Shown here piece by piece: positions 28,875 through 32,849 of a stretch of DNA of 32,960 nucleotides (position 1 is its first letter; every line of letters begins with the position of its first letter). This stretch comes from a bacterium. GTDB lineage: Bacteria; Elusimicrobiota; Elusimicrobia; UBA1565. The stretch lies in assembly GCA_004322435.1 (NCBI GenBank), contig SCTT01000028.1, positions 1-32,960 of the forward strand, written 5' to 3'. Made by a program: the position numbers and the translations under genes. Under the pieces are notes generated by a model. That model made no database searches and had not been told where the DNA came from. It was given only the letters and a program-made list of their open reading frames with translations.

Positions 28875-30482
28875 ATGGCCAACGGCGTCTGGGGGATTAC
28901 CCCCAAGAAGAACCGGCCTGCCGGAGCGCTTAAGAGCGCTTCGGCCGCGGCGTTCCTCGCGATTTTCTCCGTGTCCGCCCGCGCCGCCGAATCCGGCGGC
29001 CAGCCGGGCGCCTTCCTGCAGTACGGCGTGGGCGCCCGGGCCCTGGCCATGGGCGGCGCCTTCTACGCCATCGCCGACGACGCCACCGCCGCCTACTGGA
29101 ACCCCGCCGGTCTGGCCTACCTGCAGCGCAAAGAGATCACCACGATGCAGGCGACCCTCTTCCAGCAGACCAGCTTCAACTACATGGGCTACGCCCACCC
29201 CACCACCACCAAGGGCACCTACTCGCTGGGCATCACCCAGCTGACCTCCAACGGCTTCGAGAAGGTCAACGCCACCTTCGACCCGGCGACCGGCGAGGCG
29301 ACCAAGATCGACAAGGCGGGCTCCTTCGCCGACACGCAGCGCGCGATCTCCTTCGCGTGGGGCCGCGAGGCCACCGAGACGATGTCCTTCGGCCTCGCGT
29401 TCAAGCAGGTCTCCCGCCAGCTCGACTCCTCCTCGGACTCCCACCTGGCCATGGACATCGGGGCGATGCGCGTCATGGGCCCCAACTACCGCCTGGCCCT
29501 CGGCGTCCAGAACGTGTTCTCGAAGGCCGGCGGCGACACCGCCGACCGCCTGCCGGTGATCCTGAAGCTCGGCAACAGCGTGCGCGCGTTCAAGGACCGC
29601 CTGGTGCTGGGCTTCGACCTGCAGAAGTCCCAGACCGCCGACCTCAACTGGCGCTTCGGCGGCGAGTACTGGGCGGCGCGCTGGTTCGCCTTCCGCTTCG
29701 GCCTCCTGGCCGCCCCGACCATCCAGGAGACCGACTTCGGCTTCGGCCTGCGCTTCCGCCGCGTGCAGCTGGACCTCGCGCAGGGCATCCACGACCTCGG
29801 GGCCTCGACCCGGATGTCCGTGACCTTCCGCTTCGGCCGCTCCCGCGACGACCGCTCCGAGGACCAGATCAAGAACCTCATCCAGCAGGGCTTCGAGGCC
29901 TTCCGCGAGGGCGACTTCTCGCTGGCCACCCTGCGCCTCAACCAGGCCCTGGACGCGGCGCCCAACAACAAGCAGGTGAAGGCGATGCTGGCCCGCCTGC
30001 AGACCGTGGTCGGCTTCGTCCCGCAGGCGACCGGCGGCGAGGAGTTCCAGACCTACACCCGCAAGGGCGTGATCGCCTACGTGGACGGCCGCGACATGAA
30101 GAGCTCGGTCAACGCGCTGCGCTACGCCTACAACAAGAACCCCAAGGACGAGAAGCTGCTGGGCCTCTTGAACTTGGTCGAGCGCGAAGGCGGCGTCAGC
30201 GAGCTGACCCGCCGCATCGACGGCCCGGACACCTTCACCTTCGTCGACCAGAAGCTCTACGACGCCCGCCAGGCCATCTACGACGGCAAGTACGACCTGG
30301 CCGTGCGCCGCGCGCAGGACATCCTGGACCTCGAGCCCTCGAACGTGACCGCGCTCGAGATCATGGGCTCGTCCTTCTTCCTGATGGAGGAGAAGGCGAA
30401 GGCCAAGGCGGTCTGGAAGCGGGTCCTAGAGCTCGACCCCAAGAACAAGACCGTCGCCGAGTTCATCAAGCAGATTCAGTAG
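28875..30482 (+). CDS. PorV/UPF0164-like outer membrane barrel with C-terminal TPRs
   Basis: 535 residues. A basic n-region (KKNRPAGALK) and hydrophobic core (ASAAAFLAIFSVSA) end at an ARA site near residue 37, a Sec signal peptide. Right after it comes the family signature GVGARALAMGGAFYAIADDA...YWNPAGLAYL (residues about 51-83), characteristic of PorV/PorQ and UPF0164 outer membrane proteins. Alternating strands typical of a FadL-like barrel continue to about residue 320. The rest is helical with three or four TPRs, for example EGDFSLATLRLNQALDAAPNN and GKYDLAVRRAQDILDLEPSN, probably in the periplasm. PorV shuttles C-terminal-domain substrates in type IX secretion, and the giant protein upstream has such a domain. 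ATG 28875 is the only sensible start; no Shine-Dalgarno is visible because the riboswitch abuts it. Expression is predicted to respond to c-di-GMP. Transport of another substrate is possible. Confidence 0.87.
   Translation: MANGVWGITPKKNRPAGALKSASAAAFLAIFSVSARAAESGGQPGAFLQYGVGARALAMGGAFYAIADDATAAYWNPAGLAYLQRKEITTMQATLFQQTSFNYMGYAHPTTTKGTYSLGITQLTSNGFEKVNATFDPATGEATKIDKAGSFADTQRAISFAWGREATETMSFGLAFKQVSRQLDSSSDSHLAMDIGAMRVMGPNYRLALGVQNVFSKAGGDTADRLPVILKLGNSVRAFKDRLVLGFDLQKSQTADLNWRFGGEYWAARWFAFRFGLLAAPTIQETDFGFGLRFRRVQLDLAQGIHDLGASTRMSVTFRFGRSRDDRSEDQIKNLIQQGFEAFREGDFSLATLRLNQALDAAPNNKQVKAMLARLQTVVGFVPQATGGEEFQTYTRKGVIAYVDGRDMKSSVNALRYAYNKNPKDEKLLGLLNLVEREGGVSELTRRIDGPDTFTFVDQKLYDARQAIYDGKYDLAVRRAQDILDLEPSNVTALEIMGSSFFLMEEKAKAKAVWKRVLELDPKNKTVAEFIKQIQ
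28890..28905 (+). other. Small hairpin early in the PorV-like coding region
   Basis: TGGGGG and CCCCCA form a perfect 6-bp stem around ATTA, starting 15 bases after the start codon. It may affect ribosome loading, but could simply be a result of the encoded GITPK sequence. Confidence 0.3.
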
Positions 30483-30498
30483 GAACGCCGGCCGTGAA

Positions 30499-30536
30499 CC
30501 CCGCGCCCTGCCTCCCCCGTACGGCAGGGCGCGGGG
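30499..30536 (+). terminator. 14-bp hairpin after the PorV-like gene, terminator-like without U-tract
   Basis: CCCCGCGCCCTGCC (30499-30512) and GGCAGGGCGCGGGG (30523-30536) are perfectly complementary with a 10-nt loop, 16 bases after the TAG. Position and stability fit a 3' end element. However, G-rich sequence rather than a T-run follows, so it is not a classical intrinsic terminator. It may block 3' exonucleases or act with Rho. Confidence 0.5.
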
Positions 30537-30610
30537 GGGAGGCCTACGGCGCAAGGGGGGCGGATTTCGGTATGAAGGAACTTACGGCGGCTGTTTTCAC
30601 GGCGGAATTT

Positions 30611-30627
30611 ACGCGCTTCGGGCGCGT
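30611..30627 (+). repeat. Inverted repeat with UUCGG loop
   Basis: ACGCGC and GCGCGT pair around TTCGG. The UUCG-type loop is common in stable RNA hairpins, which favours action as RNA. Confidence 0.45.
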
Positions 30628-30628
30628 G

Positions 30629-30663
30629 GCTTCGAGGATTCCACATACGGGAATCCTCGAAGC
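30629..30663 (+). repeat. Perfect 14-bp inverted repeat, 7-base loop
   Basis: GCTTCGAGGATTCC (30629-30642) and GGAATCCTCGAAGC (30650-30663) match without mismatch. It immediately follows the UUCGG hairpin and overlaps the next dyad by three bases, so the two cannot both be fully formed at once. Confidence 0.65.
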
Positions 30664-30698
30664 GGGAGCCCTCTGCGAGGCAGGGTCGGGCTCTCGCT
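30661..30698 (+). repeat. 11-bp inverted repeat with one G-U pair
   Basis: AGCGGGAGCCC (30661-30671) pairs with GGGCTCTCGCT (30688-30698). The only non-Watson-Crick position is a G-T, which is a wobble pair in RNA. That hints at an RNA structure rather than a DNA-binding site. Confidence 0.45.
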
Positions 30699-30713
30699 CC
30701 GCCTGGGACGGCG

Positions 30714-30733
30714 AACTCGCCCCGGGGCGAGTT
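30714..30733 (+). repeat. Perfect 20-bp palindrome
   Basis: AACTCGCCCC is followed directly by its reverse complement GGGGCGAGTT. With no spacer it looks more like a dimeric protein-binding site, although an RNA hairpin with a four-base loop is possible. A DnaA-box-like 9-mer starts at its last base. Confidence 0.6.
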
Positions 30734-30741
30734 GTGGATAA
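30733..30741 (-). promoter_or_regulatory. Single consensus DnaA-box match
   Basis: TGTGGATAA on the + strand is the exact complement of the consensus box TTATCCACA. No second box or A+T-rich unwinding region was noticed nearby, so this is not an origin. It may be chance or a DnaA regulatory site. Confidence 0.25.
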
Positions 30742-30763
30742 GTCGGGGCCTCGGGGGGTCCCT

Positions 30764-30781
30764 ACTGTCCCTGGGGATAGT
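30764..30781 (+). repeat. Near-perfect 18-bp dyad
   Basis: ACTGTCCC and GGGATAGT are arms around a TG centre, with a single G-T position. The arm TACTGTC (30763-30769) also has a perfect alternative partner GACAGTA at 30798-30804. This is the last dyad before the FliF-FliG gene and could be an operator for it. Confidence 0.4.
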
Positions 30782-30833
30782 CGCACTTTGGGGTTAAGAC
30801 AGTACCGTGGGGGGAAAGGGGAGCCGGCCGTTA

Positions 30834-30862
30834 TTGATTCCGTAACAGGGTCCCCGTAACCT
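30834..30862 (+). promoter_or_regulatory. Weak promoter candidate for the FliF-FliG gene
   Basis: TTGATT (30834-30839) and TAACCT (30857-30862) are 17 bases apart. Transcription would start at about the ATG at 30870, implying a leaderless or nearly leaderless message. This fits the absence of a properly spaced ribosome binding site there: AAGG directly touches the ATG. The match to consensus is only moderate. Confidence 0.35.
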
Positions 30863-30869
30863 ATTAAGG

Positions 30870-32849
30870 ATGCGCCGCCACGCGCCCGTCATCGCCTTCG
30901 CTTTGTCCCTGGCTTACGCCGGGGCCCCCGCGCTGGCCCAGATCCAGACGCCCAAGCTCGAGCTCTTGGCCCAGCGCGACGAGATCGCGCGGGCGTCGCG
31001 CGACCGGGTGCAGAAGGAGATCCTCGACCGCCTCTTCGGCGAGGGCCAGACCTCCACCTTCGTCGACGTGGAGCTCGAGCTGAAGGCCAGCCGGCGCGAG
31101 AACCTGCGCTTCGGCGCCGGCTCGGCCGAGAAGAACAAGATCAAGGAGACCCCGGACGCGAACGTCATCAAGACCGAGAACATCCTGCCCGGCGTCCCGC
31201 GCCCGAAGAACCTGCTCGAGACGCCCAAGGAGCACATGCCGGAGGCCGCGCAGAGCCAGACCGCCCAGCAGACGAAGACCGACCAGGAGGAGACCTACAC
31301 CCAGGAGCTGGTGTTCAAGAAGTTCTCGGTGACGGTCATCCACGACGTGAAGCTCTCGACGGAGACCGCCAAGCTCGCCGCGGCCCGGGAGCTCATCGTG
31401 CAGGCGCTCAAGGCCTACGACGTCAAGCCCGACGACGTCGTCTTCCGGGAAGCCGCCTACAAGGCCGCGGCCGCGAAGGACTGGAAGGAGGAGCTCAAGG
31501 AGCCCAAGGTCTACCTGCCGCTTTTGTACGCTCTGCTCACCACGCTGTTCTTGGCCTTCCTGTTCGGGCCGCTGGCCAAGTTCTTCAAGCGCTACGTCGA
31601 GGCCCTGGTGCAGAAACCCGCGGCCGAGATCAACGTCGAGTCGAACATCACGCCGCCCGAAGACGAAGGGAAGGGCAAGGGCGGCGACCTCGAGGAGATT
31701 TTGAAGAGCCAGGTGGAGATGCTCGTGGGGCGCAAGCCCTCCGAGCCGTCGCCGCCGCCCCCGCCCCCGCCGCCCGAGGACGAGGACGAAGAGGGGGAGG
31801 ATGGAGCCATGGCGAAAAAAGAGCCGTTCGCGTACATCAACGAGACCAACCTCAAGAACCTCGCCAACCTGTTCTTGCTGCGGGCCGAGGAGCCCTGGCT
31901 GGTCGCGGTCGTCCTGAGCTACCTGCGCCCCGAGTACGCCCGCCAGGTGCTGACGGCGCTCCCGGTGGAGCTGCAGGCCAAGGTGGCGCTCGAGGCGCTC
32001 AAGATCCGCCAGGTCACCAAGGAGCAGGTCCTCGCCATCGACTCGGACATCAAGGAGAACATCGACTACGTGGTCGGGGGCATCGAGCGCCTGATCCAGA
32101 TGCTCGAGGAGGCCGACCCGCGCACGCGCGCGAACATCCTGGACTATCTGCAAAACGACAAGCCGGCCGTCTTCGAGTACGTCCGCAAGCAGATCCTGAT
32201 CTTCGAGGACGTCGCCCGCTTCCCCGACCGCGAGATGCAGGTCATCGTGCGCGGCCTCAAGGCCGAGCAGATGGCCAAGGCCCTGCACGGGGCCTCCCCC
32301 GAGGTCGCCAACAAGTTCTTCTCGAACATGTCGGCCGGAGCGGCCTCGCTCGTCAAGGAGCAGATGGAGTACCAGCGCGACCTGACCGCCTCGCAGACCG
32401 AGGAGGAGCGCGCGCGCATCATGGACGCCATCAAGCTCCTCGAGAAGGAGGGCAAGATCTCCATCCGCGGCTCGGGCGCCGAGGCGGGGGGCTTCCACCA
32501 GGTCATCGCCACGGAGTCCGTGCGCGGCCCGCGGCGCATGCCCGGGCCGGCGGCGGCGCCGACGGCCGCCTCGGAGGACCCGCAGCTCGCGCGGCGCTGG
32601 TACGAGTCCGGCAAGGAGGCGCTCGACGCGGGCGACGTCGACGGCGCGGTCAAGTCCCTGCGCCAGGCCGTCGACCTCGACCATACTTTGGCCGACGCCT
32701 TCTCGGCCTTGGGGCGCGCGCTCTACCAGCAGGGCCGCTATTCCGAAGCCATCCTCTATTATGAGAGCTTCTTGAGGCTCAAGCCCGACCCCGAGCTGCA
32801 GGCTTGGGTCGACAACGTGAAAGCGTCGCAGGCCGGAACCGGAGCCTAA
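30870..32849 (+). CDS. FliF(C-terminal)-FliG(M+C)-TPR fusion, flagellar-ring relic
   Basis: 659 residues. A signal peptide ends at ALA-QIQ (about residue 24). Residues about 45-205 match the FliF C-terminal periplasmic ring-building region: EILDRLFGEGQTSTFVDVELE, a hydrophilic insertion, then KKFSVTVIHDVKLS and VKPDDVVF. A membrane helix follows (about 216-237, LPLLYALLTTLFLAFLFG), then a cytoplasmic tail with a proline run and an acidic linker. From residue 314 the sequence is FliG middle domain (EEPWLVAVVLSYLRPEYARQ, VGGIERL), then FliG C-terminal domain (FEDVARFPDRE, ALHGAS, SNMSAGAA, LLEKEGKISI) to about 540, then two TPRs (569-655). FliF's first membrane helix and first ring domains and FliG-N are absent; FliG-N normally binds FliF, which covalent fusion makes unnecessary. 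No other flagellar gene is in the window. Likely an inner membrane ring; whether it rotates is unknown. The upstream frame stops at 30843, so ATG 30870 is the start. Confidence 0.85.
   Translation: MRRHAPVIAFALSLAYAGAPALAQIQTPKLELLAQRDEIARASRDRVQKEILDRLFGEGQTSTFVDVELELKASRRENLRFGAGSAEKNKIKETPDANVIKTENILPGVPRPKNLLETPKEHMPEAAQSQTAQQTKTDQEETYTQELVFKKFSVTVIHDVKLSTETAKLAAARELIVQALKAYDVKPDDVVFREAAYKAAAAKDWKEELKEPKVYLPLLYALLTTLFLAFLFGPLAKFFKRYVEALVQKPAAEINVESNITPPEDEGKGKGGDLEEILKSQVEMLVGRKPSEPSPPPPPPPPEDEDEEGEDGAMAKKEPFAYINETNLKNLANLFLLRAEEPWLVAVVLSYLRPEYARQVLTALPVELQAKVALEALKIRQVTKEQVLAIDSDIKENIDYVVGGIERLIQMLEEADPRTRANILDYLQNDKPAVFEYVRKQILIFEDVARFPDREMQVIVRGLKAEQMAKALHGASPEVANKFFSNMSAGAASLVKEQMEYQRDLTASQTEEERARIMDAIKLLEKEGKISIRGSGAEAGGFHQVIATESVRGPRRMPGPAAAPTAASEDPQLARRWYESGKEALDAGDVDGAVKSLRQAVDLDHTLADAFSALGRALYQQGRYSEAILYYESFLRLKPDPELQAWVDNVKASQAGTGA
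31793..31811 (+). promoter_or_regulatory. Internal ribosome binding site and ATG at the FliG junction
   Basis: GGGGGAGG (31793-31800) lies eight bases before an in-frame ATG (31809-31811). That ATG opens MAKKEPFAYINETN, exactly where the FliG-like part begins. The gene's own start at 30870 has no comparable site. The site may yield a separate 346-residue soluble FliG-TPR protein alongside the fusion, or be a remnant of two formerly separate genes. Confidence 0.55.

Follow-up and report, generated by a model that had tools for sequence, protein, structure and literature searches.

The natural FliF-FliG fusion of Chlamydiaceae comprises approximately 330 amino acids, is reported to be homologous to FliG-M only, and has been considered together with FlhA and the injectisome (PMC4768692). 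Engineered FliF-FliG fusions in Salmonella and Vibrio can assemble, and can rotate in Salmonella (PMC4768692, PMC11481574). Rotor proteins are also present in non-motile species, for which another function has been asked about (PMC12199754), and an earlier single-cell study found flagellar genes to be absent in Elusimicrobia (PMC7031533). No published account of a FliFG-MotAB system in Elusimicrobiota was found in the open-licence literature. Here, we describe a FliF-FliG fusion from this phylum that lies next to a gene for an outer-membrane protein and, in relatives, is encoded together with its own stator genes.

The window, i.e., the whole stretch of 32,960 nucleotides that was analyzed, is the entire contig C142 of a MAG with 578 contigs; all features described are on its forward strand. 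An intact open reading frame with an ATG start (30870-32849) encodes a protein of 659 amino acids with the order FliF(RBM3-TM2)-FliG(M-C)-TPR, hereafter FliFG. Its N-terminus (residues 1-23, 30870-30938) is signal-peptide-like by sequence and hydropathy, as residues 5-23 are hydrophobic, end in ALA-Q and resemble a cleavable signal peptide, and it stands where FliF has TM1. The only further hydrophobic helix is a single TM helix at residues 213-239 (31506-31586), equivalent to FliF TM2 and extending from 212 to 248 in the structural model. RBM1, RBM2 and the N-terminal TM helix of FliF are not present, as just residues 26-200 precede the TM helix. On the cytoplasmic side, a proline-rich and acidic linker modeled at low confidence (residues 251-315, 31620-31814, pLDDT mostly <50) occupies the place of FliG-N. 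It is followed by the FliG middle domain (residues 336-399, 31875-32066, PF14841, E = 6.4e-13) and the stator-facing C-terminal domain of FliG (residues 427-532, 32148-32465, PF01706, E = 8.4e-24), both above the Pfam cut-offs. The FliG-MC structure 1lkv from the PDB aligns to residues 318-537 (E = 5.6e-35). Alignment to the NCBI FliG model TIGR00207 begins at residue 316 with model position 108 of 338, and FliG-N is therefore absent from the fusion; a weak Pfam FliG_N match at residues 345-424 overlies the M domain and scores below FliG_M. TPR repeats matched by Pfam TPR families and Foldseek (residues 573-640, 32586-32789) complete the protein.

The FliF half was assigned from orthologues and fold. 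Taken by itself, the N-terminal half of the window protein had no FliF match in Pfam, and a PDB-sequence profile search with it found FliF only at an E-value of approximately 0.3. The family YscJ_FliF_C was matched by 22 of 36 orthologues (best E = 1.9e-5). An AF2 model of residues 26-252 reached a mean pLDDT of 72.5, and its top 18 Foldseek matches were all FliF, mainly RBM3/S-ring structures (probability 0.91-1.00). These modest orthologue scores and the similarity of the predicted fold indicate that residues 26-200 (30945-31469) are the ring-building domain RBM3 of FliF, including a beta-collar-type insert at approximately residues 81-137. The original prediction had proposed a single chain of the FliF C-terminal periplasmic region, a membrane helix, FliG-M/C and TPRs, from which the N-terminal half of FliF and FliG-N were missing and in which a signal peptide replaced the first FliF membrane helix. 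This chain and both losses were borne out, and the predicted signal peptide has its counterpart in the hydropathy profile.

Full-length orthologues with 39-75% identity were encoded in most of 57 relatives, and 45 loci with full-length orthologues were found in an independent collection, nearly all of them titled Elusimicrobia or Elusimicrobiota. The possibility that an assembly error had merged two genes is excluded by these full-length orthologues in dozens of independent genomes. The survey of the architecture that had been suggested at the outset matched the fusion in 100 of 295 Elusimicrobiota genomes and in 53 of 90 genera (E ≤ 1e-30), some few of the 100 being fragments or partial matches to paralogues. 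Beyond the phylum, a conserved-peptide scan for the window-type fusion yielded loci that are titled Elusimicrobia/Elusimicrobiota or that carry no phylum in their titles. Pairwise dN/dS values of approximately 0.27-0.37 among the three closest copies show FliFG to be under purifying selection. In one genome, a pair of short frames resembling FliG-M, of which one contains an internal stop, is located just upstream of the fusion (G038:C32:30556-31075) and apparently arose by tandem duplication of the FliG-M domain.

Gene order around the fusion in relatives is a PorV/PorQ-family barrel with TPRs, FliFG, a coiled-coil protein, MotA, MotB and a lipoprotein, and a cysteine desulfurase often comes after the lipoprotein-like gene. 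Synteny was counted across the 45 loci, with those that had enough flanking sequence as denominators. PorV was upstream of FliFG in 38 of 39 testable loci, and the sole exception (L089) does carry a PorV frame, which dropped out of the count owing to an over-long FliFG frame. The coiled-coil gene was found in 30/30, MotA-MotB in 29/30 and the lipoprotein in 26/30 testable loci. The coiled-coil protein is approximately 800 amino acids long, is proline-rich at its N-terminus and lacks a membrane helix. In the window, FliFG is preceded by a PorV/PorQ-family outer-membrane beta-barrel with C-terminal TPRs (28875-30482; NF033709, 98.4 bits vs. a cut-off of 90). The gap between the two genes (30483-30869) is 387 bp long, as compared to approximately 54 bp in a close relative (L042), and possibly holds a promoter or reflects a lost element. 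Farther upstream, a frame that is open at the contig start (3-28652) encodes at least 9,549 amino acids of a giant surface protein with a FlgD_ig/type IX-like C-terminal tail (PF13860, 29.2 bits vs. a cut-off of 27; similarity to PorU/sorting tails), which is a probable cargo or adhesin. This frame is composed of long repeated regions. Of the 23 loci whose upstream sequence exceeds 9 kb, 5 encode a homologous giant tail.

The window contig stops 111 bp past FliFG, before the coiled-coil and stator genes. Another contig of the same genome (C107) starts 213 bp ahead of a MotA gene, whose product shares 81% identity with MotA of a close relative; MotB, the lipoprotein and a cysteine-desulfurase-like frame come next. 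The coiled-coil gene of the window-type cassette was not located in the window's genome. This genome holds at least two further FliF-FliG fusions. One of its frames (L010:1691-4129, on G000:C470) encodes HisKA, HATPase, YscJ_FliF_C, FliG_M and FliG_C domains, i.e., a rotor with a histidine kinase fused N-terminally to the FliF part. Its operon includes a PorV gene, and the fusion is followed by coiled-coil, MotA and MotB genes, an arrangement that was found again in L128 and L134. Other genomes encode FliFG-MotA-MotB cassettes, usually with a second MotB, as well as kinase-flanked cassettes with PorV, receiver-like frames and MotA/MotB. At least three paralogous cassette types exist, and FliG_C of any kind was present in 120 of 295 genomes, often in multiple copies. 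The smaller FliFG-MotA-MotB cassette of L124-L127, L129 and L130 apparently has no coiled coil; a second MotB-like gene is present in at least four of these loci, with a TPR-type protein adjoining.

The cassette MotA scored best with the flagellar MotP/MotA/PomA models (up to 214 bits), aligned to solved flagellar MotA at E = 1.3e-49, and had no TolQ/ExbB match within an E-value of 0.1, which places it in the flagellar class as judged from sequence. The cassette MotB has a plug-type N-terminus, the channel Asp and a peptidoglycan-binding OmpA domain, and the channel residues, i.e., two MotA prolines and the MotB Asp, are kept. In the E. coli stator, R90 contacts D288-D289 of FliG and E98 contacts R281 (PMC12505986). 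These charged torque residues of FliG are not retained as such in the fusion, and the changes in MotA match. Gly490 is at the R281 position and Gly occurs there in every full-length sequence of the window's cassette type, with Gln at the MotA E98 position in nearly all window-type loci (Asp, Ala or Glu in three). The D288 position is Glu throughout this cassette type (Glu497 in the window) and MotA R90 is Lys throughout; the D289 position of the fusion is uncharged. That one charge pair is lost from both partners and the other conservatively retained is what would be expected of a real rotor-stator interface, read here as a correlation among related sequences. This account fits the window's cassette type and, largely, the FliFG-MotA-MotB-MotB cassettes, but fails for the kinase-fused or kinase-flanked cassettes.

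FlhA was not detected in the window's own genome and was absent in 56 of 57 relatives (the exception being G006), and domains of FliM or FliN were detected in none of the 57. Flagellated control genomes were detected in every FlhA and FliM/FliN search. Across the phylum, FlhA was present in 3 of 295 genomes (G088, G250 and G275), just one of which overlaps with the fusion, i.e., in 1 of the 100 fusion-bearing genomes. In G088 and G250, FliG_C was additionally found in frames as long as an ordinary FliG (356 and 320 amino acids), so that some of the FlhA-bearing members may be truly flagellated, or contaminated. These distributions support the original view that the fusion looks like an MS/C-ring subunit that has been minimised and repurposed, and unlike an ordinary flagellar gene.

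Combined interpretation of domain architecture, synteny, stator class and gene absence leads us to propose FliFG as the rotor subunit of a rotary motor that works independently of a flagellum and moves surface adhesins, a reading to which, as a whole explanation, we assign a probability of roughly 0.6. Its parts differ in strength. A non-flagellar rotor-stator motor with a one-piece rotor and without the FliM/N switch is highly probable, and adhesin movement as its most likely output, i.e., gliding or surface movement, is a tentative proposal that we hold with slightly less than even confidence. As FliF RBM3 and the membrane helix are joined to FliG-M/C in one chain, docking by FliG-N is not needed. 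The RBM3 domains would form an inner-membrane ring that carries a FliG wheel on its cytoplasmic face. MotA5MotB2 units anchored to peptidoglycan via the OmpA domain of MotB could then rotate this ring by ion flow, and the cytoplasmic coiled coil and the TPRs might take the place of the FliM/N switch or act as a scaffold. Force would cross the envelope via a hypothetical carrier to PorV-type outer-membrane proteins and giant surface proteins exported by type IX secretion.

The type IX link behind the last step was followed with a phylum-specific SprA profile, which detected SprA in 52 of 57 relatives as compared to 9 of 57 with Pfam SprA_N. SprA is encoded in 96 of the 100 fusion-bearing genomes and in 157 of the 195 without the fusion. 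In the window's genome it is located on C30 and C91; TIGR04189 matched a representative SprA fragment at E = 1.9e-34, under the curated cut-off. Physical linkage of SprA to the motor locus was not seen in eight SprA loci. Overall, 253 of 295 Elusimicrobiota genomes encode an SprA-like type IX translocon, members of small-genome families among them, and Pfam SprA_N mostly missed it. A strict one-to-one link between SprA and the fusion is ruled out, as SprA is far more widespread. Co-occurrence of PorV, the giant tail and SprA may nevertheless point to type IX-exported surface proteins as the target of the motor.

The same co-occurrence raises the alternative that a FliFG-MotAB motor powers type IX secretion itself, in place of GldLM, instead of moving adhesins. 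The PorV-family neighbor of the motor, the type IX-like tail of a giant protein in some loci and the high frequency of SprA in fusion-bearing genomes would all fit such a role, as would the result that no GldL scored above cut-off in the 57 relatives, although the sensitivity of this model is doubtful at such distance and it may miss divergent GldL in the way that Pfam SprA_N missed SprA. Against such a role stand the 157 genomes that have SprA but no fusion. They include family f5, whose small genomes nearly all encode SprA and have almost no FliG_C, so that SprA does not need a FliFG motor, and together they argue against a motor that is needed for secretion. We therefore regard a secretion motor as unlikely and would favor an optional activity such as surface movement over one required for secretion. 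Somewhat less likely still is a surface- or force-sensing device in which the load on MotAB-FliFG would be relayed to two-component systems and hardly any motility, or none, would result. Stators of flagella are known to act as mechanosensors, one paralogous cassette of the window's own genome has a histidine kinase fused to the rotor, and histidine kinases and receiver-like genes flank another cassette type. The cassette type of the window, however, has no kinase, and its stator channel residues are kept, which fits work output.

Because every part of the cassette is homologous to flagellar parts, it could also be the decaying remnant of a lost flagellum, or the fusion could simply belong to an ordinary flagellum or injectisome. 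The latter view was rejected because FlhA is almost always missing and FliM/N were not found in the 57 relatives, and decay is hard to reconcile with a cassette that remains intact and syntenic phylum-wide in their absence, that is under purifying selection with coordinated changes of rotor and stator residues, and that has been expanded into several paralogous cassettes per genome; this explanation is accordingly very improbable. An anti-phage defence system of the Zorya type, in which ZorAB are MotAB homologues, has a negligible probability. The cassette MotB does match ZorB profiles (E = 2.4e-20), as any MotB-like protein might, but MotA has no ZorA match, no defence-family match was obtained for FliFG, the coiled coil or the lipoprotein, and synteny with PorV-family proteins is fixed. 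Zorya was rejected, since ZorA plus ZorC/D or ZorE were not matched, only MotB to ZorB.

If the proposed adhesin-moving rotary motor is correct, the flagellar rotor-stator pair can function as a stand-alone module. The locus offers a testable answer, as rotor and own stator are co-encoded and under selection, changes at their interface are matched, and flagellar export is almost never encoded. This bears on flagellum origins, with rotor and stator as a separable module, and on the power source for gliding or surface transport in a large and barely cultured phylum.

The Elusimicrobiota system shares with the flagellum FliF RBM3 and TM2, FliG-M/C, a flagellar-class MotA with the channel prolines, and a MotB with plug-type N-terminus, conserved Asp and OmpA domain. 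It differs in that FliF and FliG form one chain, in the absence of FliF RBM1/2, FliG-N, FliM, FliN and FlhA, in its added TPRs and the loss of the E98-R281 pair, and in its setting among PorV, coiled-coil and lipoprotein genes. The AglRQS gliding motor of Myxococcus is not known to have a FliF/FliG rotor. Use of a MotAB-family stator without a flagellum is a feature shared with AglRQS (PMC9389320, PMC12505986), but AglRS belong to a generic clade (PMC12505986) whereas the Elusimicrobiota MotA scores with flagellar MotA/PomA. GldLM/PorLM of Bacteroidota is likewise an ion-driven motor linked with type IX components and surface adhesins, yet GldLM lacks a FliG wheel and is not clearly homologous to MotAB (PMC9389320). 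The Chlamydiaceae fusion likewise joins FliF and FliG(M) naturally, in bacteria that are not considered flagellated (PMC4768692); the Elusimicrobiota protein differs from it by FliG-C, TPRs and adjacent MotA/MotB, with FlhA almost always absent. The Salmonella and Vibrio fusions, in contrast, are man-made and operate within a complete flagellum. Neither the Chlamydiaceae nor the engineered fusions are reported with their own stator operon outside flagella. The chances seem evenly balanced that the Elusimicrobiota cassettes constitute a separate class of FliG-wheel rotary machine outside flagella, with a one-piece FliF-FliG rotor, its own MotAB stators and several paralogous forms, some of them kinase-fused, that moves outer-membrane or surface proteins exported by a type IX-like route.
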